NCBI GenBank assembly: GCA_963728475.1
Contig: CAVSKL010000003.1
Span: 744,001-808,000 of the forward strand
From: CAVSKL01 sp963728475 [NCBI: Candidatus Eiseniibacteriota bacterium]
GTDB lineage: Bacteria > Eisenbacteria > RBG-16-71-46 > JABDJR01
Direction of reading: 5' to 3'
DNA: 64,000 bases
Below the pieces are notes generated by a model that was given only the letters and a program-made list of their open reading frames with translations, searched no databases and was not told the DNA's origin. Positions within the stretch are counted from its first letter, which is position 1. Every line of letters begins with the position of its first letter. Below, piece after piece: positions 4,173-62,638 of this stretch. Position numbers and translations under genes: made by a program.

Positions 4173-4237
4173 CCCCGGAGGCCGCCCGCCTCCGGGATTG
4201 ACGGCGCCTTCACGAAGTGACAGAGTCGGATTCCGTC

Positions 4238-6913
4238 ATGCGTCCCGTCTTTCCCCCGGCTTCACGGACGGTTTGGCCGCGCCTCGCCCCGTTCCTCGCC
4301 CTGCTCACGGCGGTTCTGTGCGCCGTGCCGGCGGCGTGGGCACAGGGGCCTCGGCCCGCCCCCTCCTTCGCCGCTCCCGGCCTCCCCCCCCACTACGACC
4401 GGATCCGCGACTACGACGTGATCCACACCGTTCTCCGGGTGCGCTTCGACTGGGAGCGGCGGGCGGTGTCGGGGACGGTCGTCCACCGGCTGACCCCGTT
4501 CCGGGACGGTCTCACCGTGCTCGATTTCGACCAGCACCGCATGCGCTTCGACCGGATGCGGCTCCTGGACGGGCCCGATCTCCAGTGGCGCGCCGCCGGC
4601 GACACCCTCGCGGTGGAGCTGGACCGGGCCTACTCCCGGGGCGAGACCCTCTCGGTGGCGATCACCTACGAAGCGGTGAACCCCCCCGAGGGCCTCTACT
4701 TCAACGAGCCGGACAAGGACTATCCCGACCGCCCCCGCCAGGTCTGGACCCAGGGGGAACAGGACGAGAACCACTTCTGGTTCCCCTGCTACGACGCGCT
4801 CAACGACCGCATGACCACCGAGGAATACGTCACCGCCGACGACGGCTACACCGTGATCGGGAACGGCATCCTGGCCGGCACCCGGAAGAACGGCGACGGC
4901 ACCTCCGAGTGGCATTACCGTCAGGACGTTCCCGCGCCCACCTATCTGATCTCGCTGGTGGTGGGGAAGTACGAGGCGTACGAGAGCGAGTGGGACGGGA
5001 TCCAGGTCCTGTCCTACGTGCGGCCGTCCCTCCGGGCCCAGGCCCCGCTCGCCTTCGGGCGCACCGCCGAGATGATCCGCCTCTTCAGCGAGCGGACCGG
5101 GGTACGCTATCCCTACCCGGTTTACCGTCAGACCGAGGTCGCGGACTTCCTCTTCGGCGGCATGGAGAACATCACCGCCACCACCCTCACCGCGCGCACC
5201 CTGCATCCGGAGAGCGTGGCCCCGGCCTACGACAGCGACGACCTGGTCTCGCACGAGCTCGCCCACCAGTGGTGGGGCGACTACTGCACCACCGGGAACT
5301 GGTCGAACCTCTGGCTCAACGAGGGTTTCGCGGCCTACTTCGAGTCCTTGTGGTGGGAGTTCTCCGGGGACAGCCTCCGCGCCCAGTGGACCCGGATCCA
5401 CGACCTGGACGAGTATCTCCGCTCCGACCGCGGCGGGCGGCGCCCCCTGGTCACCCGCTACTACGACACCTCCGAGGATCTCTTCGACGCCGTCTCCTAC
5501 GAGAAGGGCGCGCTGGTCCTCCACATGATCCGGGAGCGGGTGGGAGACGCGGCGTTCTGGAAGGGGCTCCGGATCTACGCGGACCGGCACGGAGCCTCGG
5601 ACGTGGAGAGCGGCGACCTTCGCGAGGCGATGGCGGCGGCGGGCGGCATTGCCCTCGACCGTTTCTTCGACCAGTGGGTCTTCCACGGCGGGCACCCCGA
5701 GTTCCGGGCCTCGTGGGACTGGGACGGCCGGTCGAAGCTGGTCCATCTCGTGCTTTCCCAGACCCAGAAGACCGACGACCTCACCCCGCTTTTCGCGATC
5801 GACGTGGACGTGGACCTGACCGGCGAGGGGTGGCACCGCCGGGTGGTGGTGCGGAGCGAACGCGAGCGCGGCGACTTCTACCTCCCCGCCCCGTCCCGGC
5901 CCGAGCTGGTGGAGCTGGATCGGGACGGGAAGCTGATCAAGACCCTGACCTTCGACAAGTCCACCGGGGAATACGTCCGGCAGCTCCGTTCGCCCGCTCT
6001 CCCCTCCCGGGTGGCCGCGGCCCGGGCGCTGGGGGAGCGGCGGGACGAGTCGGCGGTTCCGGCCCTGGCCGCGGCCCTGGCCGATACCGCCGGGTTCTGG
6101 GGGCTGCGGGGCGAGGCGGCCGGGGCCCTGGGCAGGATCGGGGGCGACGCCGCCCGGGATGCCCTCCTGGCCGGGCTCGACCGTGCTCCGGCCCGGGCGC
6201 GGGGGGACGTGGCCGAGACGCTGGGAAACTTCCACGAGAAGCGGGTGGTGGAGCGGCTCCGGTCGGCGGCGCTCGGCGATCCCATCCCCCAGGTCTCCGA
6301 GGGCGCGGTGAAGGGGCTGGGCGCGCTCGGCCGGGCGGGGGTGGACGGCGCCTACGACGCCCTCGTCGCCGCCTCCGGGCGCGACAGCTGGAACGACACC
6401 GTCCGGAACGCGGCGGTGGGGGCGTTCCGCACCGACAAGGACGTGCGGGCCCTGGACACGGTGGAGCGCTACACCCGCCCGGGGGTCGCGATGCGGACCC
6501 GGGAGTCGGCGCTCAGGACCCTCGGCGTTCTCGGGGCGGAACTCGAGCCCAAGGACCCCCGCGAGAAGGCCGCGCGGGAGATCCTCACCGCCGCCCTCGC
6601 CGACCCCTTCCTCCGGATCCGCGAATCGGCGGTGGCGGGGCTGAAAAGCCTGGGCGATCCCGCCGCCGCCGATGCCCTGGACCGGGCGGCGGCCGCCGAC
6701 GACGACCGGGGGATGCGGAGCGCCGCCGCCGAGGCCTCGGAGTCGGTGCGTGGCGGCGGGGAGAAGAGCACCGTGGCCGGCATCCGGAAGGATCTGGACC
6801 GGCTGCGGGAGTCGAACGCGTCCCTGAAGGACGAGATCCGACGGCTGGAGAGCCGGATCCAGAACGGGGAGGGATCCGCCCCGGCGGAGCACAAGGACCG
6901 GACCGACCGGTAG
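4238..6913 (+). CDS. Secreted M1 family aminopeptidase with HEAT repeats
   Basis: An 891-residue exported metallopeptidase. A signal peptide (VWPRLAPFLALLTAVLCAV..AWA) ends near residue 35. The M1 core shows the exopeptidase motif GGMEN (about 308-312) and the zinc site HELAHQWWGD with H339, E340, H343 and E362 (NEGFA). Residues about 590-860 are four or five HEAT-like repeats with alternating Ala/Leu helices (for example RVAAARALGERRDESAVPAL). The last 40 residues are a charged coiled coil (LDRLRESNASLKDEIRRLE). ATG 4238 is preferred; GTG 4217 is in frame but puts polar residues ahead of the signal. TTGACG 4198-4203 may be a -35. It converges with the next gene, 17 bases away. It probably trims peptides in the periplasm together with the M28 enzyme. 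Confidence 0.93.
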   Translation: MRPVFPPASRTVWPRLAPFLALLTAVLCAVPAAWAQGPRPAPSFAAPGLPPHYDRIRDYDVIHTVLRVRFDWERRAVSGTVVHRLTPFRDGLTVLDFDQHRMRFDRMRLLDGPDLQWRAAGDTLAVELDRAYSRGETLSVAITYEAVNPPEGLYFNEPDKDYPDRPRQVWTQGEQDENHFWFPCYDALNDRMTTEEYVTADDGYTVIGNGILAGTRKNGDGTSEWHYRQDVPAPTYLISLVVGKYEAYESEWDGIQVLSYVRPSLRAQAPLAFGRTAEMIRLFSERTGVRYPYPVYRQTEVADFLFGGMENITATTLTARTLHPESVAPAYDSDDLVSHELAHQWWGDYCTTGNWSNLWLNEGFAAYFESLWWEFSGDSLRAQWTRIHDLDEYLRSDRGGRRPLVTRYYDTSEDLFDAVSYEKGALVLHMIRERVGDAAFWKGLRIYADRHGASDVESGDLREAMAAAGGIALDRFFDQWVFHGGHPEFRASWDWDGRSKLVHLVLSQTQKTDDLTPLFAIDVDVDLTGEGWHRRVVVRSERERGDFYLPAPSRPELVELDRDGKLIKTLTFDKSTGEYVRQLRSPALPSRVAAARALGERRDESAVPALAAALADTAGFWGLRGEAAGALGRIGGDAARDALLAGLDRAPARARGDVAETLGNFHEKRVVERLRSAALGDPIPQVSEGAVKGLGALGRAGVDGAYDALVAASGRDSWNDTVRNAAVGAFRTDKDVRALDTVERYTRPGVAMRTRESALRTLGVLGAELEPKDPREKAAREILTAALADPFLRIRESAVAGLKSLGDPAAADALDRAAAADDDRGMRSAAAEASESVRGGGEKSTVAGIRKDLDRLRESNASLKDEIRRLESRIQNGEGSAPAEHKDRTDR

Positions 6914-6930: not shown

Positions 6931-7788
6931 TCACCAGCGGCCGCGCAGGCGCTCCTTGGCGGGAAGGATCTCCAGGCAGGTGGTCCACCATCCGCTGAGG
7001 ATGGTCTCCACGAACTCCGCGGGGAGCCGCTCGTCGCGCATCTCCCGGGCAAGCCGCCGGTGGTCGTACTCCACCGGCACGAACTCCGTCCGCCATCCCC
7101 GCGTGGGGTCCGCCTCCAGCACCGTGTACCAGACCCGGGTAGTGCCGTCGTTCTCGGGACGGCCCAGGACCCCCACGTTCACGAACCCGCGCCCGTCGGC
7201 CAGCCGGCGCTCCCACTTGATCCCGGTGTGGGTGCCGAGCAGCAGGGCCACCTCCGCCGCGTCCAGGAAGTTGCGCAAGAGGCCGTCGGGGGTGCCGCTC
7301 TCCCACAGGAACTCGTTGGTCCGTCGCGGGGAGCCGTGGCAGGTGAGAACTTCGGCGGTTCCCAGCCGGAAGCGGTAGGCGGGTGGGAGCGACCCCAGCC
7401 AGCGCTTGTTCACCTCCGAGGTGTTGGCGAAGGTGTAGTCGTAGGAAATCTGGGCGAACCGGTTGTCGCGGGGGTCGGTGTAGCCGCACCCGCAGTCGTC
7501 GAGCCCCCCCGAGACCGAGACGTCGTAGTTGCCGCGCATCGTCCGTACCCCGTGGTCGCGGATGAGCGGGAACACCCGGTCGGGATACGGCCCGAACCCG
7601 CCGAGGTCGCCCAGGCAGAACACCGCCTCCGCCCCGCGCCGGCGCGCGTCGTCGAGGGCGGCGGCCAGGGCCAGGTGGTTGTTGTAGATCCCGCCGAACA
7701 CCGCGACCCGCCGGAAGGCGCCGGGCAGGCGCTCGGCCCCTTCCACCGCGCCGAGGACGCGTTCCCGGAACGGGGAGGAGGAACTCAC
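6931..7788 (-). CDS. Calcineurin-like metallophosphoesterase, non-canonical metal motif
   Basis: A 285-residue protein starting at GTG 7788, two bases after the stop of the upstream radical SAM gene, so translation is coupled. The fold of a calcineurin-like phosphoesterase is clear from CLGDLGGFGPYPDRV, RGNYD, LTCHGSPRR and GTHTGIKW. The first motif reads VFGGIYNNHLAL where the usual form is SDIHGN, so the expected metal-binding Asp and His are Gly33 and Tyr35; the GNHD His is also Tyr. A Cys-rich insert (DDCGCGYTDPRDN) follows. Because several positions change together while the rest is well kept, I read this as a distinct subfamily rather than a decayed gene. Substrate unknown; the pairing with a radical SAM enzyme is probably functional. 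Confidence 0.85.
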   Translation of the reverse strand: MSSSSPFRERVLGAVEGAERLPGAFRRVAVFGGIYNNHLALAAALDDARRRGAEAVFCLGDLGGFGPYPDRVFPLIRDHGVRTMRGNYDVSVSGGLDDCGCGYTDPRDNRFAQISYDYTFANTSEVNKRWLGSLPPAYRFRLGTAEVLTCHGSPRRTNEFLWESGTPDGLLRNFLDAAEVALLLGTHTGIKWERRLADGRGFVNVGVLGRPENDGTTRVWYTVLEADPTRGWRTEFVPVEYDHRRLAREMRDERLPAEFVETILSGWWTTCLEILPAKERLRGRW

Positions 7789-7790
7789 GG

Positions 7791-8702
7791 TCAGTAGTTC
7801 CCGCAGGTCATGCCCGTGTCGTAGCAGGTCCGGCAGGCGTGGTGGGTGAGCGGGACCGGCCCGAGGCCCGCGGCCAGGGAGCCGTGCCCGGTCAGCGCCA
7901 CCCGCTTCCCGACCAGGATGGGGCAGGCGTAGATCCCCTGGGCGGTGACCACCCGGGTCTCGGCGCACTGCAGGAGGAGCGGATCCATGCCTTCCAGCAT
8001 CGACCCGGTCACCGGGCCTCCCTCGGCGGGATCCTCGAGCTTCCCGGTGTGGAAGACGGGGAGCACCTTGAGCCGGGGCCGCTTCATCCCTGCGTCCCGG
8101 AGCACGGCCAGGAACCGGTCGTAGACCCGCCCCGGCCCGGGATCGGCGTCCGGCCCCAGCAGGTACTCGGTCGCGGTCACGATGGGGAGGAGACCTGCCC
8201 CCTCCAGTCGCAGCAGGGCCCGGAGAGCCTTGGCGTGGGCGCCGGGGCCTCGGACGGCGTCGTTGCGGCCGGGGTCGGGGTGGTCCATGCTCACCCGCAC
8301 TTCCAGCGAATAGCGCGAGGCGGCCGCGATCTCCCCCAGCGCCCCGGCGATCCGCTCGGTGACGAGGGTACCGTTGGTGAGCACGGTGGCGGGAGCGACG
8401 GCGAGGGCGTCCCCCAGGATCGGAACCATCTCGCGGTGGAGGAAGGGCTCCCCGCCGGTGAAGTAGACCTCCTTCACCCCCAGCGCCTCCGCCTCGCGGA
8501 GATAGACCGCGATCGTCGCGCGGTCCAGGAACGCCATGGCGTCGTTCCGGGGGGAGGAGTCGACCAGGCAGTGGGTGCACTCCAGATTGCAGAGCAGTCC
8601 GGTCACCTGGAACCAGATCGAGTTCAGGCGCTGGAGAGGGAGGCGGGCCGGCCGGTCCGGCCGGGGGGCCGTTTGAAGATCGGTCAACGTGTTCTGGCTC
8701 AT
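7791..8702 (-). CDS. Radical SAM protein with SPASM-like C-terminus
   Basis: A 303-residue enzyme. CNLECTHC near residue 50 is the canonical C-x3-C-x2-C site for the SAM-cleaving 4Fe-4S cluster, followed by the SAM-binding phrase YFTGGEPFLH and a TNGTL strand. The C-terminal third has six more cysteines (CAETR, YACPIL, ACRTCYDTGMTC), typical of an auxiliary cluster domain of the SPASM/twitch type used in peptide, protein or cofactor modification. ATG 8702 starts the protein just before a polar leader; an upstream in-frame start would add 14 basic residues. It forms a two-gene unit with the downstream metallophosphoesterase. Substrate not identifiable from sequence; no short precursor peptide gene is evident next to it. 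Confidence 0.85.
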   Translation of the reverse strand: MSQNTLTDLQTAPRPDRPARLPLQRLNSIWFQVTGLLCNLECTHCLVDSSPRNDAMAFLDRATIAVYLREAEALGVKEVYFTGGEPFLHREMVPILGDALAVAPATVLTNGTLVTERIAGALGEIAAASRYSLEVRVSMDHPDPGRNDAVRGPGAHAKALRALLRLEGAGLLPIVTATEYLLGPDADPGPGRVYDRFLAVLRDAGMKRPRLKVLPVFHTGKLEDPAEGGPVTGSMLEGMDPLLLQCAETRVVTAQGIYACPILVGKRVALTGHGSLAAGLGPVPLTHHACRTCYDTGMTCGNY

Positions 8703-8880
8703 ACGGAAACGAGTACGAAAGGACGCCCGAAGTGGGACAGACAAGGATACCGGTCGGCGCCGGACCCGGTCGACGGGAAAAGGCCCCCGGGGGCAGTGGG
8801 GGAGAAGGGGCGCCCCCCGGCCGCGGCCGGCTCGGGAACCGGCCCGGCGGGTCCGCCGTCCGCCTCCGTCCGCCCGCTCC

Positions 8881-8910
8881 TTGACACCGGTGCCGTCCGG
8901 GACCTAGCCT
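8881..8910 (+). promoter_or_regulatory. Promoter of first large exported protein
   Basis: TTGACA at 8881-8886 is a perfect -35 hexamer, with an 18-base spacer and TAGCCT at 8905-8910. The same layout, including the preceding GGACC and a downstream CGGGCTTGA, occurs ahead of the paralogous gene at 11480. Confidence 0.65.
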
Positions 8911-8943
8911 CCTACTGGTCGGGCTTGAAGTCGGGTGGCAAGA

Positions 8944-11349
8944 ATGATGAACGGAATCAGAGTTCCGGCTCCGCGCCCGCTCCTCCTCCGTACTCCTGCC
9001 CCGGTTCTCCTGCTCGCCGCCGCGCTGGCCACGATCCTTCCGGTCGAAGCGTCCGCGCACGAGTCCGGCCTGGAGCGCCCCCTCGCCTTCGGGCGGGACG
9101 AGTCGAGCTTCTACGGGATCGCTGAGCCGAACCTCTTCGTTCACGACGCGGGGCTCCTCCGGCTCCAGATCACCAACGTGGGGATCGTGGGGAATCCGTT
9201 CTCCTCCCGGTTTTCCGCCGAATGGCGGGGGAACGAGTACCTGTACCTGGGCGGACTCTGGATCGGGGCGATCGGCAAGGACTCCGTGCCCCACGTATCG
9301 ACCGCCGACTCCTTCGAGCTTCGGCCCGAGATCGCCCCGGCGTGGACGATCTACCGGTCCTACCAGGGTGCGCCGGGGGGAAACCGGGTGGGGGACGGGG
9401 GGTACTGCTCCGCCGACGACGACCACGACGGCTGCTCGGGTGCCGACGTGGTCGACCCCGCGCTCATCGACGAGGACTTCCAGAACGGCCTGGACGACGA
9501 CGGGGACGGGCAGGTCGACGAGGACTTCGAGGCCCTGGGCCAGCAGATGTTCTCCTGCTCTTACCGCGACGACGCCCCGGAAGTGCTCGCCCAGGAACCC
9601 GGTCACTTCCCGCTGGGCATCCTGGTGCGGCAGCGCTCGATCCAGTGGTCCGGGGCGGGGGCCGAGGGGTTCGTCGGGTTCGATTACCGCGTGGAGAACG
9701 TGGGAGACCAGCGCCTGCATCAGGTGTTCCTCGGTCTCTACACCGACGCCGACATCGGCCCCAAGACCGCCCCGGACTACGGATCCGACGACCTGGTGGG
9801 TTGGGCGTGTATCGACACTGCCTTCACCGATTCTAATCTGCCCGGCGCCTGCGCCTCCCGCGACGCCTCGGTCGACGCCGCCTACATGTGGGACGCCGCG
9901 GCCTCGGGCCGGGTCCCGGGGGTGATCGGGACCGCCATTCTCGGCCATGCCACCGATCCCGTCGGATTCCAGGCTCCGGCGGCGGTCGGGATCACCACCC
10001 TGGCCTGGTTCACCGGATCGGACCGGAGTCCCGGGCCCGCGAACGACGAGGAGCGCTTCGCGCTCCTGAACTCCAGGAGCCGGCCCCGGTCCGACGCCTC
10101 CGAGCCCGGAGACTACCGGTACGTGGCGGCGGTCGGGCCTTTCCTGCAGCTCGATCCCGGTGAGTCCATGCGGTTCCAGATCGCCTACGTCGTCGGAGAC
10201 GGCCAGGCCGGTTTCCGGGCCGGGGCGGCCCGGGCCAAGCAGGTGTTCGACGGCCGCTACGTGGATGCGGACCAGGATCCCTCCACCGGGGTGCAGGGGA
10301 AGGAAACGTGCATCCACGCCCTCGACAACAACTCGCTGGTGAATTGGGACGATCCCTGCGACACCCTCGCCACCTTCATCGTCATCAAGGGAACGCACTG
10401 CTACTGGGTGGACGGTGACTGCAACCCCTGCACCGGGACCAACGGCGAGGAGACCCCCATCCGCTGGGTCGCCGGGGTGGCACCGCCGGCCCCGAACACC
10501 AACACCGATTCCGGGCCGCGGCCGCTCCCCGACCCGAACCTCTCCGCGTACGTCTCTCCGGCCGGCGACCACCGGGCGATCATCCAGTGGGACGATTCGT
10601 CGGAGCACCGTCCCGATCCGATCACCGGGGTCAACTATTTCCAGGGTTACCGGGTCTGGCGGGCGGATGGCTGGGCCCGTCCGGCGGGCTCGATCGGCCC
10701 CGAGCCGGGGGACTGGATGCAGCTCGTGGAGTTCCGAAGGGACCCGGGCACCGCCGCGGGCCGGGTGACCCGGAACCTCGATGAGGCGCTCTGCCGCGGG
10801 GTTCAGCCCGGGAGCGCGCCCCGACCTTCAGCAGGCTCCGGGGGAGCCCGCTACTACTGCTACAGCGACACCTCGGAGCTGGTAAACGGAAAGGTCTACT
10901 TCTACGCGGTGACCGCGTTCGGCCTCGTCCGCCACCGGAACCCCGGGACCACCTCGTACGACACCACGGAAGTGGCCGGCCTTCCCGCGGCCATCGAGGC
11001 GGCGGCGGTGATCCCGCGATGGGACGCGGCAGCAGGATGCAGCGACGTCCGGGTCGTCCCGAACCCCTACCGGGGGTCCGCGGCCTGGGACCTCGGGCCC
11101 GGTCCGGGAGCCCTCCCCGAGACCAGGATCGCCTTCCGGAACCTGCCCCCGGCGCGCTCCACCATCCGGGTCTTCACGCTGGCCGGGGACCTGGTGGTGG
11201 AGGCGGAGCACGACGGGACCGGCGGCGACGGCACCTGGTTCTGGGACCTGGCCTCGGGAAAGGGGCGGACGGCGGCCAGCGGGCTCTACCTGTATTCGGT
11301 GGAGTATCCGGGCGGCACCTGCCGTGGACGGTTCGCGATCATCCGGTAG
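8944..11349 (+). CDS. Large exported protein with C-terminal FlgD/T9SS-like domain (paralog A)
   Basis: An 801-residue protein with a signal peptide (LLLRTPAPVLLLAAALATILPVEASA, cut at ASA-HE). ATG 8944 or 8947 are both possible; GTG 8935 is less likely. An acidic Ca-binding-like block (DDDHDG, LDDDGDGQVDED; about 155-195) resembles thrombospondin type 3 repeats. Paired cysteines across the middle (CIHALDNN..DPCDT, HCYWVDGDCNPC) suggest disulfides outside the cytoplasm. A fibronectin-like region (about 535-700, GYRVWRADGW) precedes a C-terminal beta domain (VVPNPYRG...IRVFTLAGDLVVEA...ASGLYLYSVEYPGG). The latter has the NP, LAGD and SGLYLY landmarks of FlgD/type IX sorting domains and ends in RGRFAIIR. 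It is clearly paralogous along its whole length to the next gene. Probably a cell-surface or secreted structural protein; function unknown. Confidence 0.88.
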   Translation: MMNGIRVPAPRPLLLRTPAPVLLLAAALATILPVEASAHESGLERPLAFGRDESSFYGIAEPNLFVHDAGLLRLQITNVGIVGNPFSSRFSAEWRGNEYLYLGGLWIGAIGKDSVPHVSTADSFELRPEIAPAWTIYRSYQGAPGGNRVGDGGYCSADDDHDGCSGADVVDPALIDEDFQNGLDDDGDGQVDEDFEALGQQMFSCSYRDDAPEVLAQEPGHFPLGILVRQRSIQWSGAGAEGFVGFDYRVENVGDQRLHQVFLGLYTDADIGPKTAPDYGSDDLVGWACIDTAFTDSNLPGACASRDASVDAAYMWDAAASGRVPGVIGTAILGHATDPVGFQAPAAVGITTLAWFTGSDRSPGPANDEERFALLNSRSRPRSDASEPGDYRYVAAVGPFLQLDPGESMRFQIAYVVGDGQAGFRAGAARAKQVFDGRYVDADQDPSTGVQGKETCIHALDNNSLVNWDDPCDTLATFIVIKGTHCYWVDGDCNPCTGTNGEETPIRWVAGVAPPAPNTNTDSGPRPLPDPNLSAYVSPAGDHRAIIQWDDSSEHRPDPITGVNYFQGYRVWRADGWARPAGSIGPEPGDWMQLVEFRRDPGTAAGRVTRNLDEALCRGVQPGSAPRPSAGSGGARYYCYSDTSELVNGKVYFYAVTAFGLVRHRNPGTTSYDTTEVAGLPAAIEAAAVIPRWDAAAGCSDVRVVPNPYRGSAAWDLGPGPGALPETRIAFRNLPPARSTIRVFTLAGDLVVEAEHDGTGGDGTWFWDLASGKGRTAASGLYLYSVEYPGGTCRGRFAIIR

Positions 11350-11387
11350 GGGAGAGGCCGGGCGCGCGCGGAAGCGCGCTCTACCGG
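11343..11387 (+). terminator. Stem-loop after paralog A
   Basis: CCGGTAG (11343-11349, containing the stop codon) pairs with CTACCGG (11381-11387) and encloses a GCGCGC/GCGCGC stem with a GGAA loop. The T-run afterwards is weak (TGTTTCGG), so this may be an mRNA-stabilising or attenuating structure rather than a full terminator. Confidence 0.4.
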
Positions 11388-11415
11388 TGTTTCGGTGCGA
11401 TTCCGAAGGAATTTC

Positions 11416-11445
11416 TTGACAATCACGGGAACGCGGACCTAGATT
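11416..11445 (+). promoter_or_regulatory. Promoter of second large exported protein
   Basis: TTGACA at 11416-11421, an 18-base spacer and TAGATT at 11440-11445, starting about 35 bases before ATG 11480. The hexamers and flanking GGACC match the promoter at 8881-8910. Confidence 0.7.
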
Positions 11446-11479
11446 CCCTTCGACCGGGCTTGAGAACGGATGAAGCAGC

Positions 11480-13918
11480 ATGTCGCCTGTCATCCGCCTC
11501 GTTCTCCGTCGGCGGTTCCGTCCCGCGTTCCGGATCCCGGCCTGGAGCAGGCTGGGCGTTGCCGTGGCCGGAGCCCTCCTCGTCGCCGCGCCCCCGAGCG
11601 CCTCGGCGCATCGGAGCGACCTGGAGCCGCCCCTGGCTTTCGGCCGCGAGGCATACGGGCTCAATGCGAACCGGCCTCCCCACATCTTCACCCACAACGT
11701 GGGACTCCTGAACCTGCAGATCACCAACCTGGGGATCATCGGGAACCCGTTCGTTCTCGACCTCATCTCCGCGGGGTGGCGGGGAGGCGAGTACCTCTTC
11801 TACTCGGGCCTCTGGATCGGCGCCATCGGCTCTGACTCCGAGCCGCACGTGTCCACCGCCAACCAGCTGGAGCTTCGTCCCGACCTGAGCCCGGTATGGA
11901 CGATCTACCGGTCCTACGAAGGGGTGAAGAACGGGAACCGGCTCGGCGAGGGGGGCTTCTGCACCGCCGACGACGACCACGACGGCTGCTCGGGCGAGAC
12001 GGTTCTCGACGCCGGTCTCATCGACGAGGACTTTCAGAACGGGCTGGACGACGACGGGGACGGCCGGATCGACGAGGACTTCGAGTCCATCGGGCAGCAG
12101 ATGTTCTCCTGCATGTACCGGGACGACACCCCCGAGGCCGTTGCCCAGGTCGCCGACCACGTCCCCCTGGGCATTCTCGTCCGGCAACGCTCCTTCGAGT
12201 GGTCCACCGCCACCATCAACGAGTTCGTCGGCTTCGACTTCCAGATCATCAACACCGGCGACCAGCGGCTGAAGAACGTCTACCTGGGGTTCTTCTCCGA
12301 CTCCGACATCGGGCCCAAGTCCACGCCGAATTTCTGGACCGACGATCTGGTGGGGTGGGCCCACATCGACACCACCGTCACCGACGCGCTCCGGCCGGGG
12401 GCGTGCTCGGTGTTCGACCTCTCCATGGATACCGCCTACATGTGGGACGCCAAGGACGACGGGACCACCATCTCGGGCGGCGACGTCCCCGGCGTGTTCG
12501 GCACCCTGTTCCTGGGCCACACCACCGACGACTCGGGGATCAAGGCTCCCCAGAACGTGGGCCTGACCACCGTGGTCTGGTTCAGTTCCTCCGGCCAGAA
12601 CTCCGACCCCCAGAACGACGACGAGCGCTACGCGCTCCTCGCCTCCGGCAACAAGCCGCAGCGGAACGCGGTCAAGCCCGACGACTACCGTTACGTGGTG
12701 GCGGCCGGCCCCTTCCAGCAGCTCAACCCCGGGGAGTCCCTGAACTTCCAGACCGCCTACGTGATCGGCGAGGGGCAGGACGGCTTCCGGGCCAACGCGG
12801 TCAACGCCCAGCGCGTGTTCAACGGCCGGTTCGTGGACGGCGACCGCGACCCGTCCACCGGCATCAACGGCAAGGAACGCTGCATCCACGCCCTCGACGG
12901 CAACTCCGTGGTGCAGTGGGACGACCCTTGCGACACCCTGCAGACCCAGATCACCTTCAAGGGCACCCGGTGCAACTGGGTGGACGCGGACTGCGATCCC
13001 TGCACCGGGGTCCAGGGCCAGGAGACCGCGATCAAGTGGGTGGGCACCACCGCGCCGCCGCCCCCGAACCTGAACACCGATCCCAACCTCGACCCCATTC
13101 GGGATCCCAACCTGCGGGCGTTCCAACCGGCGGCGGGGGACCACGGAATCCTCCTCCAGTGGGACAACTCCCCGGAACTCCGCAAGGACCCGATCACCGG
13201 GCAGAACCTGTTCGAGGGATACCGGGTGTGGCGGGCGGACAACTGGCAGCGGCCCGAGGGCTCGATCGGCCCCTCTCCCGAGGAGTGGATGAAGATCGCC
13301 GAGTTCCGCAAGGATGCCTCGGCCAATTCGCAGGGCGCCCAGAGCCTTCACGCCATCGAGAACCGGGACGTGGCCGCGGTGGGGCAGACCGACGACGGGA
13401 AGCCGGTGTACCCTATCGGCCGGTACGAGTACGCCGACTCCTCGGGGATCGTCAACGGCAAGGTCTTCTTCTACTCGGTGACCGCGTTCGGCGTGACCAC
13501 CCGGCGGAATCCCGACACCGGGGTGGAGGAGGAAGTGGTGCTGGACGGGCAGCCGTCGGCGGTGGAGGCGGAGGCGGTAGTGCCGCGGTGGAACGCCGCC
13601 CGCGGATGCGACGACGTGAAGGTGGTGCCGAACCCCTACCGGGGGGGCGCCGACTGGGACCTGGTTCCCAGCGACAAGGATCCCACCGGGACCAAGATCG
13701 CGTTCCGGAACCTGCCCCAGGCCGAGTCCACCATCCGGATCTACACCCTGGCCGGGGACCTGGTGATCGAGTCGGTGCACGACGGGACCGGCGGTGACGG
13801 GACCTATTTCTGGAACATGATCACCCGCAACGGTCAGAACGTGACGAGCGGTCTGTATCTGTATTCGGTCGAGTATCCCGGCGGCATCTGCCGCGGGCGC
13901 TTTGCCATCATCCGATGA
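11480..13918 (+). CDS. Large exported protein with C-terminal FlgD/T9SS-like domain (paralog B)
   Basis: An 812-residue paralog of the preceding gene, conserved from the first mature residues (LAFGRE..., LLNLQITNLGIIGNPF) to the last (CRGRFAIIR). The signal peptide ends near SASA-HR (about residue 44). It has the same acidic repeat (ADDDHDGCSG, LDDDGDGRIDEDFE), the same cysteine pairs, the same GYRVWRADNW fibronectin-like segment, and a C-terminal sorting-like domain with VVPNPYRGG, IRIYTLAGDLVIE and TSGLYLYSVEYPGG. Start ATG 11480 has only a weak ribosome site. A PorV-like gene follows 38 bases later, which fits a substrate-plus-shuttle arrangement. In known type IX secretion the C-terminal domain is the export signal; that this applies here is inference. 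Confidence 0.88.
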   Translation: MSPVIRLVLRRRFRPAFRIPAWSRLGVAVAGALLVAAPPSASAHRSDLEPPLAFGREAYGLNANRPPHIFTHNVGLLNLQITNLGIIGNPFVLDLISAGWRGGEYLFYSGLWIGAIGSDSEPHVSTANQLELRPDLSPVWTIYRSYEGVKNGNRLGEGGFCTADDDHDGCSGETVLDAGLIDEDFQNGLDDDGDGRIDEDFESIGQQMFSCMYRDDTPEAVAQVADHVPLGILVRQRSFEWSTATINEFVGFDFQIINTGDQRLKNVYLGFFSDSDIGPKSTPNFWTDDLVGWAHIDTTVTDALRPGACSVFDLSMDTAYMWDAKDDGTTISGGDVPGVFGTLFLGHTTDDSGIKAPQNVGLTTVVWFSSSGQNSDPQNDDERYALLASGNKPQRNAVKPDDYRYVVAAGPFQQLNPGESLNFQTAYVIGEGQDGFRANAVNAQRVFNGRFVDGDRDPSTGINGKERCIHALDGNSVVQWDDPCDTLQTQITFKGTRCNWVDADCDPCTGVQGQETAIKWVGTTAPPPPNLNTDPNLDPIRDPNLRAFQPAAGDHGILLQWDNSPELRKDPITGQNLFEGYRVWRADNWQRPEGSIGPSPEEWMKIAEFRKDASANSQGAQSLHAIENRDVAAVGQTDDGKPVYPIGRYEYADSSGIVNGKVFFYSVTAFGVTTRRNPDTGVEEEVVLDGQPSAVEAEAVVPRWNAARGCDDVKVVPNPYRGGADWDLVPSDKDPTGTKIAFRNLPQAESTIRIYTLAGDLVIESVHDGTGGDGTYFWNMITRNGQNVTSGLYLYSVEYPGGICRGRFAIIR

Positions 13919-13956
13919 GGATTTGCCGGAGGATGCGGGCTCAAGGAGGTACTGCG

Positions 13957-14913
13957 GTGAAACGAATGGTGGCGGCGGTCACACTTCTCTGCCTGGCCCC
14001 GGTGGGGTTGATGCCGGGCAAAGCGGAGGCGGCCAAGTTCTTCGAGAAGGTCGGCACCTACGACGGCCAGTTTCTGAAGATCCCGATCGGGGCGCGGGCC
14101 ACCGGGATGGGGGCGGCGTTCGTGGCGGTGGCCGACGACGCGTCGGCGGTGTACTGGAACCCGGCGGGGGTGGCGCGCCTGCAGGGGAACATCATCTCGG
14201 TGAACCACATCAACTGGCCGGCGGACGTGAACCTGACCCAGGGGGCGTACGTGTTCAGCCTGGGGTTCCTGCCGGGGATGCTGGCGTTCCACGCCCGGTC
14301 CCTGTACGTGGGGAGCATGGCCCGGACCACGGTGTACAAGCCGGATGGAGACGGGACGTATTTCGACGCGGGGTACACCGCGTTCGGGGTGACCTACGCC
14401 CGGTCGCTGACCGACAAGTTCTCGGTGGGGGTGAGCGCGAACCTGGTGCACGCGGGCCTGGACAACCTGTCCGCCAACGCGCTCTCGTTCGACGTGGGGA
14501 CCCTCTACGACACCGGGTTCCGGTCGTTGAAGATCGGGATGGAGATCCAGAACATGGGGTCGGAGCTGTCGTACATCGACAAGTCGAAGGCGTCGAAGCT
14601 GCCGATCCTGTTCCGGGTGGGGGCGTCGATGAACATGCTGCAGAGCCTGGACCACAAGATCCTGACCACGGCGGAGTTCAGCCATCCCCCGGACAACAAC
14701 GAGCGGTTGAACGCGGGGCTGGAGTACGGGTTCAAGGACTTCTTCTTCCTGCGCGGAGGATACAACTTCGGTTACGACGCCGAGTCGTTCAGCGCGGGGG
14801 TGGGAGTGAACTTCCCGACGTCGCTCTCCTCCGAGACCCGGTTCGACTACTCCTACACGGACATGGCCGACCTCTCCGGCGCACACCGCTTCTCGCTGGA
14901 GATCGGATTCTAA
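13957..14913 (+). CDS. PorV/PorQ (UPF0164)-like outer membrane beta-barrel protein
   Basis: A 318-residue protein. GTG 13957 is chosen because AAGGAGGT sits six bases upstream and a signal peptide follows at once (VKRMVAAVTLLCLAPVG..AEA). The mature start IPIGARATGMGAAFVAVADDASAVYWNPAG is the hallmark of the PorV/PorQ family, which fold as 14-stranded barrels. Alternating strands run to the end (GLEYGFKDFFFLRGGYNFGY) and the chain stops on Phe, as expected for Bam-inserted barrels. In type IX secretion PorV carries substrates by their C-terminal domain to the attachment machinery. The gene directly follows two exported paralogs with such domains and is ended by a clear terminator. No other Por/Gld/Spr genes are in the window. 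Confidence 0.88.
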   Translation: MKRMVAAVTLLCLAPVGLMPGKAEAAKFFEKVGTYDGQFLKIPIGARATGMGAAFVAVADDASAVYWNPAGVARLQGNIISVNHINWPADVNLTQGAYVFSLGFLPGMLAFHARSLYVGSMARTTVYKPDGDGTYFDAGYTAFGVTYARSLTDKFSVGVSANLVHAGLDNLSANALSFDVGTLYDTGFRSLKIGMEIQNMGSELSYIDKSKASKLPILFRVGASMNMLQSLDHKILTTAEFSHPPDNNERLNAGLEYGFKDFFFLRGGYNFGYDAESFSAGVGVNFPTSLSSETRFDYSYTDMADLSGAHRFSLEIGF

Positions 14914-14947: not shown

Positions 14948-16570
14948 CTATCCCCGCTTCAGCACCACCAGGGTGAGGTCGTCGCGGGCGTGGCTCTCCC
15001 CGCGAAAGCTGGAGACGTCGGCAAGCAGCGCGTCGGCCAGGCTGTCCGGGGTGTCCACGTCGCGGCGCGAACAGGCGGCATCGAAGAACGCCTGCATCTG
15101 TCCCTCGTCGTACTGGGCGCCGGTGGGGTTCTCGGTCTCGGGAATGCCGTCGCTGAACACCAGGAGCGAGCTTCCCTTCGCGAGCACCGTCTCCTCCTCG
15201 GTCCGCGTCATGCCGGCGATGAGGGCGACCGGGGTGCCGGTGGGCTCCAGCGTCCGCACCCCGTCCTCGTCCAGGATGAGCGGCGGACAGTGGCCGGCGT
15301 TGACGTAGCGGAGCCGCCCCTCGGCGGGCTCGAGGATCCCGGCAAACAGGGTGAGGAACTGCCCCGGCTCCACGTGGGCCTCCAGGTGCCGCTCCAGGCG
15401 GGTGACCAGGTCCAGCGGATCCCCGCACTCGTCCTCCAGGATCTGCAGGCTGGCCATCACGCTCGACATGAGGAGCGCCGCCCCGATCCCCTTGCCGCTG
15501 ATGTCGCCGAGCACGATCCAGAGCCGCCCCTGGGGGCAGGCGCGGACGTCGAACAGGTCGCCCCCCACCTCGTAGCAGGGGGTCTGGTGGGTGAACACCG
15601 AGTAGCCGGGCGGAGAGGTGATGTCGTGGGGAAGCAGGTTCTGCTGGATGCGGGCCGCGATCCCCAGCTCCTGCTGGAGCCGTTCCCGCTCCCGCTCCGA
15701 CTCCTCCAGACGGATGTTGGTCATCTTCACCGCGGTCATGTTGGCGAGCAGCGTCAAGAGCCGCAGGTCGTCGGCGGTGTAGGTCACCCCGGGAATGCGC
15801 GAGTCCACGTAGATCGCCCCCAGCACCCGGTCGTTGTCGAAGAGGGGGGCGCCCATGGCGCCCTGGATCCCGGCGGAGACGATGCTGGCGGTGGGGGAGA
15901 AGTCCTGGGCGGCGTCGGCGGTCAAAAACGAGCGCCCCTCGTTCAGCACCTGCTTCAGCATGGTCAGGCTCATCCGGAGCGGCTCGTCGGGTGAGGCCCC
16001 GTGCACCCGGGCGGCCAGCGGCTCTCCGATCACCCCGTGCTCTCCCGCCGCCATCAGGATCACCCGGCTGGCCCGGATGAACCGCTCCAGGAGGTCCAGC
16101 ATCCCTTCGTAAAGCTCCTGCTCCCCGGTGGGGCGGCTGAGGAGCTGCCCGGCTTCGTGAACCGCGGCCAGCACCGCCTCGGACCGCTTCTTGGTGCTCT
16201 CCTCGCGGATCTCCCGGACCGAGGTGGTCATGGTGACCATCGTCCCCTCGGGGGCGAAGCGGGCGAGATCGGTGGTCTCCTGCCCCTGCAGCACCAGGTT
16301 GGCGTGGCCGATCCGGACCTGGTCGCCCGGCTTGAGCTCGGTTTCGCCCTCCAGGCGGTTCCCGTTCACGTAGGTCCCGTTCATGCTCCCGAGGTCGCGG
16401 AGGATGACCCGGTCGTTCTCGAGCTCGACCTCGGCATGACGGCGCGAGACCGCGTTGTCGGCCAGGTGAACCGCGCAGTCGGAGCTGCGCCCCACCACGT
16501 GGAGTCCGGATTGAAGCTGGAAGCGGAGCGGGTTGGCGCCCAGGCGCCCGGCGAGCACGAAGCGAAGCAT
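14948..16570 (-). CDS. FHA-GAF-PP2C (SpoIIE/RsbU-type) serine phosphatase
   Basis: A 540-residue cytosolic signalling protein with no membrane segment. Residues 1-95 are an FHA domain (VVGRSSDCAVHL, VSRRHAEVE, DLGSMNGTYVNG), which binds phosphothreonine. Residues about 150-300 form a GAF sensor domain (MGAPLFDNDRVLGAIYVD). A short coiled coil (ESERERERLQQELGIAARIQ) leads to a PP2C-like phosphatase (about 330-540). The metal-binding acids are present: GGDLFD, LGDISGKG and ARDDLTLVVL. In known systems such proteins dephosphorylate anti-anti-sigma factors; no anti-sigma or antagonist gene is adjacent, so its target is elsewhere. It stands alone, convergent with the PorV-like gene and divergent from queG. 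Confidence 0.92.
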   Translation of the reverse strand: MLRFVLAGRLGANPLRFQLQSGLHVVGRSSDCAVHLADNAVSRRHAEVELENDRVILRDLGSMNGTYVNGNRLEGETELKPGDQVRIGHANLVLQGQETTDLARFAPEGTMVTMTTSVREIREESTKKRSEAVLAAVHEAGQLLSRPTGEQELYEGMLDLLERFIRASRVILMAAGEHGVIGEPLAARVHGASPDEPLRMSLTMLKQVLNEGRSFLTADAAQDFSPTASIVSAGIQGAMGAPLFDNDRVLGAIYVDSRIPGVTYTADDLRLLTLLANMTAVKMTNIRLEESERERERLQQELGIAARIQQNLLPHDITSPPGYSVFTHQTPCYEVGGDLFDVRACPQGRLWIVLGDISGKGIGAALLMSSVMASLQILEDECGDPLDLVTRLERHLEAHVEPGQFLTLFAGILEPAEGRLRYVNAGHCPPLILDEDGVRTLEPTGTPVALIAGMTRTEEETVLAKGSSLLVFSDGIPETENPTGAQYDEGQMQAFFDAACSRRDVDTPDSLADALLADVSSFRGESHARDDLTLVVLKRG

Positions 16571-27422: not shown

Positions 27423-29831
27423 GTGCTTCAGTCCGGACTCCATAACCCCGTCCGAGGCCTCGGATGGATGCTGGGGGTGCTGGCGCTCCTGGCCGCCGCT
27501 CCCGCCGGGAACGCCGCCCCTCTCCCCGGGTCGGCCGCGGTCGCCGGCGGCCCCGCGCGGGCCTCGGTCCCGCCGCCGGCCGCCGGCCCCGCCTCCGGCA
27601 CCACCGCCGCGGCCCCGGTCGCCCGGACTCCGCCTCCCCATCCCTGGACCCCCGCGCCCCCGCCGGTGGACCTCCTCGAGCCGGTCCGCCCGTTCCCGAG
27701 TCCGCCCCGGTTCGCCCTGGTCCTGAGCGGGGGCGGAGCGCGCGGCTTTTCCCACATCGGCGTCCTGCGGGCGTTCGAGGAGGCCGGGATCGCCCCCGAC
27801 CTGGTGATCGGATGCAGCATGGGGGCGGTGATCGGCGGGCTCTACGCCTGCGGCTACTCGCCGGCGGAGCTGGACTCGGTGATGCGGGGCGTGGACTGGT
27901 CGAGCTTCTTCTCCGGCGCGGTGCGGCGGCAGTACGCGGGGGTGGCCCAGGAGCTGTCCGCCGTGCCCGGCCTCTTCACCGTGGGCTTCGGCGGGGCGGG
28001 AACGCTGGAGGTCAACCAGTCCCTGGCCAGCAGCGCGGGCGCCGAAGATCTCTACACCCGGCTCACCCTCAGCTCGGAGTACCTGGCCGGGGGTAACTTC
28101 GACCGGCTGGCCATGCCCTTCCGCGCCGCCGCCACCGATCTTCGGACCGGAACCCTCGTCCTTCTCGACCGCGGCGGGCTGGGACGCGCTCTGGCCGCCA
28201 GCTCCGCGGTGCCGCTGGTGTTCCGGCCGGTGGGGATCGACAGCCTGTGGCTGGTCGACGGGGGGGTGATCGACAACTTCCCGGTGTTCGCGGCCCGGGA
28301 GACCGGGGCGCGATTCGTGGTGGGAGTGGACGCGGCCAAACCGCTCCGGCCGGAACCCTCGTTCCTGGGGCCGGTGACGGTGGCGTTCCGGACCTTCGAG
28401 ATCCTGAGCCAGCAGACCAAGGACCGGAGCAACGACATGGCCGACGTGATCGTGACCCCGGAGCTGGGCCCGGTGCCCACCACCTCCTTCGACCGCGCGG
28501 ACTCCCTGGTCGCCGCCGGCTACCGGGCCGGGCAGGCGGCGGTGCCCCGCATCCTGGCCGTGCTGGATTCGCTGGGGGTGCCCCGGGAGAGCCTGCGGGA
28601 GAACCTGGAGGCGCGCCGGGCCTTCCGCGTCCGTGCCCGGGACGCGCTTCAGGGAAAGCGCATCGGGAAGATCTCCGTGGACGGGCTCCGTCGCTACGAG
28701 CCGAAGGTCGTGCTCCAGGAGCTCGCCTTCGCCACCGGGGACCGCTGGGACATGGGCCGGGCGATGGAGAGCCTGGGGAACGTGGACGCGACCGACCGCT
28801 TCCGCTACGTGCGCCTGGAGCTGCGGCCCTACCGCGGGGACGGGCTGGAAGCGGTTTTTCACGTGGCCGAGAATCCGGTCATCCACACCGGCCTCGGGGT
28901 CCGGGTGGAAAGCGACCGGGGCTGGGAAGCGCGGCTCCGGTTCGAGAACACCAACGTATGGCGCACCGGGAGCACCGGCACCGTGGATCTCATGGGAGGG
29001 GAGACCCGCCAGTTCGCGTCGCTGGAAGCGCGGACGCCGTACCTGCTCCCGCGGCGCTGGACCCAGCGGAGCCGGGCCTACGGTTTCTTCGACCAGCTCC
29101 CGCGCTACACCGGGGCCGGCCGCGCCGCCGGCGCCGTCCACCTCCGCCGGATCGGGTTCGACTTCCCCCGCCTCGGGTACCTGCTCGGCCGGAGGGGCCT
29201 GATCGAGGCCGGCTACCGCCGCGAGTGGACCCGGACCGGCCCCTTCCGCCGCCAGGGGATCGCGGGGGGGGAGGACGACTTGAGCTCCCTCGCGCTGTCC
29301 GGCTATTACCTCCGCTCCGGCGGGGTGCCTCAGGGGACGGTGCGGGTGGACGCCTCCGCCGAGGTCGAGTGGGGATTCCGCGCCCTCGGCGGGGACGCCG
29401 CGTTCTTCCGTTACGACGCGCACCTCGCCGGCCAGCGCCCGGCCCCGCTGGTTCCGGGCTCGATGGGGGCCACCTTCGACGCCGGCGTGCACGACCGCCC
29501 GCTTCCCGCCGCTCTCCAGTACCGGCTCGGCGGTCCGGGAAGCCTGGCCGGGCTTCACCGGGACGAACTCCTCGGCAACGTTCTCGTCCGGGGAGGGCTG
29601 TTCCACGAGTCGCCGCTGGTGGGGCCGGTCAACCTGCGGATCGGCGTCGATCTGGGCGGGGTATGGAGGCAACGCCGCGACGTGCGGCTCGCCGGGCTCC
29701 GGGCCGGGCTCGGCGCCGGGATCCGCATCAACCTCCCCGCCGGTCCCCTGGCCGTGGATTACGGCCACACCGCCGGGGGCCGCGACCTCTGGACGGCCTC
29801 CCTGGGCTACGCCTTCCGCCGGCCGCGCTGA
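27423..29831 (+). CDS. Patatin-like phospholipase fused to Omp85 barrel (type Vd autotransporter)
   Basis: About 800 residues, exported. GTG 27423 is the first start; ATG 27468 also leaves a signal peptide (LGVLALLAAAPAGNA). After a Pro/Ala linker, a patatin domain (about 95-400) has the oxyanion loop GGGARGFSHIG, the nucleophile motif GCSMG (Ser near 131) and the catalytic Asp in DGGVIDNFPV (about 279). A POTRA-like unit follows (RIGKISVDGLRRYEPKVVLQEL...FRYVRLELR, about 415-490). A 16-strand Omp85-type barrel fills the rest (surface-antigen region, ending GRDLWTASLGYAFRRPR). This is the PlpD/FplA type Vd architecture: a lipase moved to the surface by its own barrel. Substrate specificity unknown. 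Confidence 0.93.
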   Translation: MLQSGLHNPVRGLGWMLGVLALLAAAPAGNAAPLPGSAAVAGGPARASVPPPAAGPASGTTAAAPVARTPPPHPWTPAPPPVDLLEPVRPFPSPPRFALVLSGGGARGFSHIGVLRAFEEAGIAPDLVIGCSMGAVIGGLYACGYSPAELDSVMRGVDWSSFFSGAVRRQYAGVAQELSAVPGLFTVGFGGAGTLEVNQSLASSAGAEDLYTRLTLSSEYLAGGNFDRLAMPFRAAATDLRTGTLVLLDRGGLGRALAASSAVPLVFRPVGIDSLWLVDGGVIDNFPVFAARETGARFVVGVDAAKPLRPEPSFLGPVTVAFRTFEILSQQTKDRSNDMADVIVTPELGPVPTTSFDRADSLVAAGYRAGQAAVPRILAVLDSLGVPRESLRENLEARRAFRVRARDALQGKRIGKISVDGLRRYEPKVVLQELAFATGDRWDMGRAMESLGNVDATDRFRYVRLELRPYRGDGLEAVFHVAENPVIHTGLGVRVESDRGWEARLRFENTNVWRTGSTGTVDLMGGETRQFASLEARTPYLLPRRWTQRSRAYGFFDQLPRYTGAGRAAGAVHLRRIGFDFPRLGYLLGRRGLIEAGYRREWTRTGPFRRQGIAGGEDDLSSLALSGYYLRSGGVPQGTVRVDASAEVEWGFRALGGDAAFFRYDAHLAGQRPAPLVPGSMGATFDAGVHDRPLPAALQYRLGGPGSLAGLHRDELLGNVLVRGGLFHESPLVGPVNLRIGVDLGGVWRQRRDVRLAGLRAGLGAGIRINLPAGPLAVDYGHTAGGRDLWTASLGYAFRRPR

Positions 29832-37595: not shown

Positions 37596-38435
37596 TCAGA
37601 GGCCGGCCGCCTCCCCGGCGGTCTCCGCGGCCTTGGCCTCGATCACCCGCGGATGCGGCGGGATGAACAGGCCCAGCACCAGCCCGACCAGGAACCCGCC
37701 CACGTGCCCCAGGTAGTCGAAGTTCAGGATGGCCGGGAGCACCAGGATCACGAAGAGCGGCGCGTACACCCGGCGGGTCTTCCACCGCTGCCGGAAGGTG
37801 AAGAGCCGGTAGCGGCGGATGAGGAACGTGGCCACGCACCCGGCCAGGCCGAACACCGCCCCCGACGCCCCCACGCTCAGCGGCGGCCCGGGGTGCCCGT
37901 AGTACGAGATCGCCATTCCCCCGGCCCCGGTCAGGAAGTACGCGGCCACCGTCCACCGGCGTCCCATCAAGAACTCCACCGTCCCGGAGGTCACCAGGAG
38001 CGCCACCATGTTGCTGAGGAGATGCTTGGGCCCGGCGTGGAGGAAGATCGTCACCGCCCACCACCACACCTGCCCGTGCTCGTGGACCGCGTACCACCAG
38101 CCGGTGGCCCACCCCGAGAGCGCCCGCAGGTACTCGGTCCGGAACGCCACCATGAGCGCCGCGCTCACCACCAGGTTCACCAGGATCAGGACCTCGGTAG
38201 AGGAGAACCCGCGGCGGGGGAACACCACGTCCCGTAAGCCGGGGAGAGGTGGCCCCTCCGCCGGCGCCTGGGGGAGCAGGGCGCGCCGGTACTCGAGGAG
38301 GTCGCCGGCCCGGATCCAGCCGCGTCCCTCCACCAGCACCTCGGCCTGGGGGGGAATGCGCCCATCCTGGACCCAGATGGCCCACTCCTCCGGCTCCAAC
38401 CGGATCACCTCGTCGCCCAGCCTTACGCCGATCAT
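37596..38435 (-). CDS. Rhomboid family intramembrane serine protease
   Basis: A 279-residue membrane protease. The N-terminal 60 residues look like a GYF_2-type module (EEWAIWVQDGRIPPQAEVLVEGRGW). A core of six or seven helices follows. The catalytic Ser191 is in VGASGAVFGL and His244 in YLGHVGGFLVGL; FLHAGPKHLLSNM gives the loop histidine and Asn. It cleaves membrane-anchored substrates within the bilayer. The GYF_2 part may recruit substrates. Single gene, divergent from the sugar transporter. Confidence 0.94.
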   Translation of the reverse strand: MIGVRLGDEVIRLEPEEWAIWVQDGRIPPQAEVLVEGRGWIRAGDLLEYRRALLPQAPAEGPPLPGLRDVVFPRRGFSSTEVLILVNLVVSAALMVAFRTEYLRALSGWATGWWYAVHEHGQVWWWAVTIFLHAGPKHLLSNMVALLVTSGTVEFLMGRRWTVAAYFLTGAGGMAISYYGHPGPPLSVGASGAVFGLAGCVATFLIRRYRLFTFRQRWKTRRVYAPLFVILVLPAILNFDYLGHVGGFLVGLVLGLFIPPHPRVIEAKAAETAGEAAGL

Positions 38436-62142: not shown

Positions 62143-62190
62143 CGGCCGGGCCGGGCCGTCTCAAGAATGAGAGGCTCCCGGCCGGGTTTT
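62143..62190 (+). terminator. Long hairpin terminator after subtilase
   Basis: Outer stem CGGCCGGG (62143-62150) / CCCGGCCG (62177-62184), inner stem with TCTCA/TGAGA and an AGAA loop, followed by GGGTTTTGG. Confidence 0.65.
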
Positions 62191-62329
62191 GGTTGGACAG
62201 ACACGCGGATGGGCGCCGACACTGAATGCGAGGGCATGCGGAGACCCCCTGCGCGCGGGACTCCGGAGATGCTTCCTTCCCGGATTGCCGGCGCCGAACG
62301 CGTGTCGTGGGGGTGTTCCTAGGCTGTCT

Positions 62330-62348
62330 GGCGCGCCTTTGGCGCGCC
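62330..62348. repeat. Twin GGCGCGCC palindromes
   Basis: GGCGCGCC (62330-62337) and again (62341-62348) separated by TTT; the two copies can pair into an 8-bp hairpin. Confidence 0.7.
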
Positions 62349-62508
62349 TGGGGGAAAAGCCGACTCGCACCCCGCCCTACGCCGAGGCGCCGGCAGTTCG
62401 CCTTCGCTTCGCCGCCCGGGCGCGTTCCGTCCCCGGGGGCGGAGCCCGCCTCGCCCTCCCTCTTCGGGCGTCGTTTTCCTTCGAATGCGCTCCAACCTCG
62501 ACTTGCGC

Positions 62509-62514
62509 TATAAT
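62509..62514 (+). promoter_or_regulatory. -10 hexamer of FG-GAP gene
   Basis: Perfect TATAAT about 125 bases before ATG 62639; no consensus -35. Confidence 0.5.
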
Positions 62515-62638
62515 GTTGGCCGCCTTCGCCTTTCCCCCGCGGAGGAAGAAACGTCCAACAGGTGGGCTCCTGGAAGGGCCTTACGATGCCGGCCCCGGGG
62601 CGTTCCTCTGCGCGCACTTCTTCCCCAAGGGGCCGCTC

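Follow-up and report, generated by a model that had tools for sequence, protein, structure and literature searches.

Can proteins with tails of the type IX kind have an outer-membrane barrel of their own, encoded next to them? The question is raised by three adjacent genes in a 64 kb stretch of DNA (hereafter, the window; positions 744,001 to 808,000 of contig CAVSKL010000003.1) from CAVSKL01 sp963728475, a Candidatus Eiseniibacteriota bacterium. At positions 8944 to 14913 of the window, two exported paralogs with a common immunoglobulin (Ig)-like C-terminal domain (CTD) are followed by a barrel of the PorV/PorQ family. This observation is confirmed here, and a similar substrate-barrel pair exists in the cultured hot-spring bacterium Rhodothermus marinus. 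The interpretation that we prefer, with a probability of about 0.5, is that the three genes form a dedicated substrate-plus-barrel unit of the type IX kind, working like PorZ with PorQ or like type B proteins with SprF. It is plausible that the unit is a variant of a known surface-display system.

The paralogs and the barrel

Paralog 1 (8944..11349, + strand) lies in an open reading frame (ORF) of 804 amino acids (8935-11349), for which ATG 8944 is a plausible start. Paralog 2 (11480..13918, +) consists of 812 amino acids and has the same architecture, with a signal peptide recognized by eye, an acidic Ca-binding-like block and an Ig-like CTD (11026..11346 in paralog 1, where the trimmed tail gives the profile matches described below, and 13595..13915 in paralog 2, both +). 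At ~800 amino acids each, the paralogs are not as 'giant' as a preliminary description of the locus had them; the other features it listed are borne out. The two proteins are similar along their full length (59% identity across 781 aligned positions, 953 bits), the disulfide-type cysteines are common to both (all 11 of paralog 2 align with cysteines of paralog 1, which has 14), and both contain the acidic block (DDDHDGC...IDEDFQNGLDDDGDG..DEDFE) and the C-terminal landmarks PNPY, TLAGDLV and SGLYLY, which in paralog 2 read VVPNPY...IRIYTLAGDLV...SGLYLYSVEY...GRFAIIR. Tails with VVPNPY are common in genomes of the Fibrobacteres-Chlorobi-Bacteroidetes (FCB) group. The synonymous divergence (dS) of the pair is 0.73 and the nonsynonymous divergence (dN) 0.33 (Nei-Gojobori, 791 aligned codons); among six segments with boundaries drawn by the analyst, the most constrained are the acidic block (dN 0.13) and the CTD (dN 0.21), compared with 0.33 overall. 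The region ahead of the CTD resembles fibronectin III only by eye, and a Pfam scan of residues 541-705 in paralog 2 gave no match.

The barrel gene (13957..14913, +), also with a signal peptide seen by eye, is open from ATG 13915, and because an AAGGAGG site precedes GTG 13957, the latter is suggested as its start. This start is located 38 nt past the stop of paralog 2, and the barrel is probably on the same transcript. The third-position G+C of paralog 1, paralog 2 and the barrel (0.89, 0.92 and 0.93, respectively) supports the coding status of all three ORFs.

The barrel matches the NCBIfam family model PorV_fam (NF033709) over positions 5-326 of 326 with 199.8 bits (E 8.3e-59), well over the cut-off of 90, so that the PorV/PorQ-type barrel reported directly downstream of the paralogs is indeed present. 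With the equivalog models NF033710 (PorV) and NF033711 (PorQ), it scores 73.9 bits for PorV (cut-off 250) and 95.2 bits for PorQ (cut-off 220), below both cut-offs; the scores for PorV2 (63.5 bits) and PorP/SprF (31.5 bits, cut-off 90.55) are below the cut-offs as well, and the Pfam PorV model is matched with 36.0 bits (cut-off 27). The barrel also exceeds the cut-off of UPF0164 (27.1 bits against 21.4) and falls just below that of Toluene_X/FadL (PF03349; 29.1 bits against 29.7, with the best stretch at residues 62-115). These two scores would suit a FadL-type transporter or a structural porin, with the adjacency to exported proteins reflecting a shared pathway only, and PorV itself is described as a FadL homologue (PMC12578637). 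The PorV/PorQ family model, however, wins by far, and among solved structures it is PorV, not FadL, that is retrieved. A phmmer search of the Protein Data Bank with the barrel gives a single match at E up to 1, to PorV in its complex with SprA (E 5.7e-6), and a profile of the window barrel and its R. marinus counterpart matches PorV at E 4.8e-17, followed by matches at 0.13 and 0.26; neither search returned a FadL structure. The barrel groups with PorV/PorQ, with PorV as its sole significant solved relative, and a transporter or porin at this position appears very unlikely.

A related pair in Rhodothermus marinus

The two proteins used as tblastn queries, paralog 2 and the barrel, were searched against 72,556 plasmid records. 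Paralog 2 (E up to 0.01) matched only plasmid pRMAR01 of R. marinus, through its tail (query 650-812), and the barrel (E up to 0.001) matched only pRMAR01 and a Parabacteroides PorQ. On pRMAR01 (125 kb, 103 listed features in an incomplete gene table), there is one PorV_fam match and one tblastn place for paralog 2, in adjoining genes: WP_144295523 (1132 amino acids, RMAR_RS14115) is directly upstream of the PorV/PorQ-family protein WP_012845294 (RMAR_RS14110), the two overlapping in the annotation. The chance of such direct adjacency is estimated at ~1 in 100, given the 103 features of this incomplete table. A BLASTP comparison of paralog 2 with WP_144295523 yields four significant blocks (E 3e-15, 2e-9, 4e-9 and 2e-7), broadly collinear and partly overlapping, that span paralog 2 from residue 230 to the end; WP_144295523 is a distant homolog of paralog 2.

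A comparable gene order, TonB receptor, T9SS (type IX secretion system) type A protein, PorV/PorQ family protein, is listed without comment for the alginate locus of R. marinus (PMC9530828); hypA/hypB of this locus (Alg-PUL) are likened to the window genes by annotation and gene order, not by sequence. In both R. marinus pairs, as in the window, a large CTD protein is encoded directly upstream of a PorV/PorQ-family gene. The R. marinus pairs differ from the window in having one substrate rather than two and a TonB-dependent receptor directly upstream; pRMAR01 adds, further upstream, an FG-GAP protein whose tail passes the cut-off of TIGR04183, the type A model, and its paralog 2 homolog contains 3 cysteines, compared with 11 and 14 in the window. 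Because pRMAR01 holds a similar pair, the suggestion that the system is lineage-specific is doubtful. As to a general habit of PorQ, no annotated CTD protein adjoins the PorQ gene on the one Parabacteroides plasmid, and a Phocaeicola record carries no annotation at that place. At the end of the window, an ORF that stays open past the boundary (62189-64000, +) combines a signal-like stretch with FG-GAP-like DGDGDLD repeats, both recognized by eye; an FG-GAP protein also occurs near the R. marinus pair.

The tails and the known carrier systems

The relationship of the tails to type IX/FlgD-type CTDs, as claimed in the preliminary description, holds at the level of homology and not at that of model cut-offs. 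When the class of window CTDs is compared with two tails that pass TIGR04183, hhalign gives 96.9% (E 1.8e-10 for a single comparison), and one of these two, that of the R. marinus FG-GAP protein, is matched by profile at E ~2e-7; judged by these profiles, the window and R. marinus tails are homologous to ordinary type A tails and belong to one superfamily with them. None of the profiles that had been expected to recognize the paralogs does so above its cut-off. The trimmed tails of paralogs 2 and 1 score 18.3 and 16.7 bits on TIGR04183 (cut-off 23), whereas the whole proteins score 13.2 and 11.5 bits; the R. marinus tail scores 19.0 bits. FlgD_ig (PF13860) gives 17.8 bits for the paralog 2 tail (cut-off 27) and is not returned for that of paralog 1, CHU_C gives 16.8 and 12.3 bits (cut-off 27) for the tails of paralogs 2 and 1, and the type B model TIGR04131 was not returned for the paralogs at E up to 1 in an NCBIfam scan, the presence of this model in the library not having been checked separately. 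Among the NCBIfam models, the trimmed tails match the PorZ C-terminus best (E 3.1e-6 for paralog 2, 4.2e-4 for paralog 1 and 3.5e-5 for R. marinus). The best match of the class profile among solved structures is PorU, at a non-significant E of 0.033.

Two ordinary tails serve for comparison. One belongs to a 643 amino acid protein of the window (41772-43703, +) that ends in a FlgD_ig/type A-like fashion (36.7 bits on FlgD_ig, cut-off 27) and has no adjoining barrel gene called; on TIGR04183, it reaches 26.3 bits trimmed and 21.4 bits as a whole protein (cut-off 23). The other is the tail of the R. marinus FG-GAP protein (27.0 bits, passing). Both match PorU best by E-value and FlgD models too, and among the tails scanned, the NCBIfam FlgD models were returned for these two only. 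A mere FlgD hook domain was considered for the CTD of the paralogs, the FlgD_ig score of the paralog 2 tail (17.8) being nearly equal to its TIGR04183 score (18.3), and was provisionally set aside because FlgD_ig is not returned for the paralog 1 or R. marinus tails.

The known systems resemble the window genes each in part. The CTD of PorZ is retained, and PorZ binds PorQ; cognate PorV-like barrels have been suggested to protect CTDs from cleavage (PMC10202324). The window genes share with PorZ-PorQ the partnership of a CTD with a barrel, the best match of the trimmed tails to the PorZ C-terminus and the higher score of the barrel on PorQ than on PorV; they differ in that the paralogs match the PorZ C-terminus only, with no PorZ body, in that tails and barrel alike are far below the equivalog cut-offs, and in that the genes adjoin, with two substrates per barrel. 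Type B tails use cognate PorP/SprF barrels that are often encoded nearby or downstream, as in SprB-SprF and Fjoh_3952-Fjoh_3951 (PMC12618676). The order of a surface protein followed by a barrel gene is the same in the window, but the window barrel is weak on PorP/SprF (31.5 against 90.55), and the tails match the type A and PorZ models, with no type B model returned. With PorV and its type A substrates, whose CTDs bind PorV loops inside SprA (PMC10994853), the window genes have in common the tail superfamily and the fact that the barrel has PorV as its one significant relative among solved structures; they differ in tails that are below the type A cut-off and in a pairing that looks dedicated, not shared.

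The locus might also obey ordinary type A logic, such that the barrel would be a general recycling PorV for many substrates, the CTDs would be cleaved, and the paralogs would adjoin it by chance. The common tail superfamily fits this, as does the type A-like tail of 41772-43703, beside which no barrel gene was called; the PorZ model score does not separate the two classes of tails, and in Flavobacterium johnsoniae a single PorV serves all type A tails (PMC12618676). On the other side, the similar pair on pRMAR01 and the substrate-barrel order in the R. marinus alginate locus argue for dedicated pairing, and the window barrel scores higher on PorQ (95.2) than on PorV (73.9). Altogether, a shared PorV is a possibility to be kept in mind, albeit a rather unlikely one.

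Under the preferred interpretation of a dedicated unit, the paralogs would be exported by Sec, as their signal peptides suggest, and would pass the outer membrane by way of a type IX translocon whose genes lie in another part of the genome. The Ig-like CTD would then be taken by the co-encoded PorV/PorQ-family barrel, a binding suggested by the family of the barrel together with the recurrent pairing. By analogy with PorZ on PorQ and with what is proposed for type B proteins on PorP/SprF, the protein would most likely stay docked on the barrel instead of being cleaved and released. The body, which contains the acidic Ca-binding-like block and numerous cysteines, would be exposed on the cell surface. 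The job of the displayed body might be the capture of a ligand or a glycan, which is a guess prompted by the TonB-dependent receptor that adjoins the R. marinus pair, once inside an alginate-use locus.

Several observations weigh against this interpretation. The TIGR04183 scores of the trimmed tails are below the cut-off, and at E up to 1, 13 of 14 control genomes contain weak matches to this model, so that such matches mean little alone; Pfam gives no sorting-domain match for the R. marinus tail. The PorZ matches benefited from trimming, being weaker for whole proteins (E 8.4e-5 for paralog 2, 0.011 for paralog 1 and 0.0036 for R. marinus). Moreover, an ordinary type A tail scores as high on the PorZ model (26.7 bits for the R. 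marinus FG-GAP protein, compared with 25.9 for the better of the paralog tails; that of 41772-43703 reaches 17.6), so that the PorZ likeness is a ranking or a hint, not a class marker. The R. marinus homolog lacks the pair of cysteines found on either side of the window CTDs, and the N-terminal block of its alignment falls short of significance (E 0.55). No relative was confirmed by two protein scans of genome_contigs and three of viral_contigs with short peptide patterns, which can miss relatives; two DNA patterns gave 13 and 5 loci in viral_contigs, and at E up to 1 the profiles matched none of these 18. The structure predictions, made for paralog 2 and the barrel, are too poor to use; their mean predicted local distance difference test scores (pLDDT) are 31.0 and 27.9, the value of 27.9 being that of the AlphaFold model that bears on the CTD fold. 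Finally, in one survey, T9SS was present in 60 of 97 Bacteroidetes genomes and was not found outside this clade (PMC4793230).

For type B cargo, there are documented cases of barrels encoded next to their substrates, and type A cargo is described as sharing a single PorV (PMC12618676); no description of dedicated PorV/PorQ barrels for type A-like cargo was found in the open-licence literature, among the matches listed and in the parts of these sources that were available. The new part would be the combination of type A-like tails with a PorV/PorQ barrel of their own, the sharing of one PorV by type A tails being known from the literature. If true, this combination, present in two bacteria, would mean that the rule of dedicated carriers also holds for the PorV/PorQ branch, and it would point to the cultured R. 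marinus for asking whether PorZ-PorQ exemplifies a more general mechanism of docking.

Type IX core genes and the surroundings of the locus

The scan for type IX core genes covered 31 distinct ORFs of the window (24 of the 41 listed and seven others), and in none of the 31 did a core gene pass a cut-off. Besides the PorV matches of the barrel and those of the tails, the type IX and gliding models matched weakly; the closest to core parts are PorE in a TPR protein (18.0 bits, cut-off 600) and GldF in an ABC permease (16.1 bits, cut-off 288.5). A whole SprA or PorU gene in the window is unlikely because the NCBIfam models (2319 and 1095 positions) exceed the longest accepted ORF (979 amino acids). 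This result, along with the restriction of T9SS to Bacteroidetes in the survey cited above, could mean that the barrel and the CTD work with another translocon in this lineage and that surface export proceeds there without the classical type IX machine. Absence from a partly scanned 64 kb window is a weak argument, however; the system model of the same survey treats four T9SS components as scattered (PMC4793230), and a possible presence of type IX in several FCB phyla, Rhodothermota among them, has been reported (PMC11285876). Export by another translocon is, accordingly, considered unlikely. More remote still is the idea that, in lineages with few or no classical type IX core genes, PorV/PorQ-family barrels each serve a CTD protein of their own, in small dedicated units for display that would reveal the origin or the reduction of the shared PorV shuttle.

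The upstream regions of the two paralogs are also related. The + strand of the window contains three copies of TTGACA and the - strand none, and two of the three sites are located 63 nt ahead of ATG 8944 and 64 nt ahead of ATG 11480, each followed after 18 bp by TAG..T (8881..8910, +, with the weak second hexamer TAGCCT, and 11416..11445, +, with TAGATT); GGACCTAG and CGGGCTTGA are common to both upstream regions. These promoter-like elements read as a duplicated promoter that may give each paralog its own transcription start. The paralog 2 site matches 10 of 12 consensus positions, and one site was found compared with a mean of 0.3 in shuffles of the region; the consensus scan did not list the paralog 1 site, with its poor second hexamer. 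A 27-base pattern built from both sites has exact matches only at those two, by construction, and with up to 3 mismatches, it occurs at 3 places against 2.61 expected.

The three + strand genes are flanked by neighbours on the opposite strand, a radical SAM gene (7791-8744) before paralog 1 and a gene for an FHA-GAF-SpoIIE protein (14948-16570) after the barrel. The radical SAM protein, with several cysteines close to its C-terminus, adjoins a metallophosphoesterase (6931-8744 for both, -), divergent from the paralogs. The G+C content of the window is 67-73% in 4-kb steps, with no tRNA found and no Rfam match at the gathering score. Elsewhere in the window, an M1 aminopeptidase with a signal-like start, seen by eye, is fused to HEAT repeats (4217-6913, +), a weak rhombosortase match (26.5 bits, cut-off 84) is located at 37596-38435 (-), and at 27423-29831 (+), a patatin phospholipase domain precedes an Omp85-type barrel domain, an arrangement known from type V-d-like proteins.

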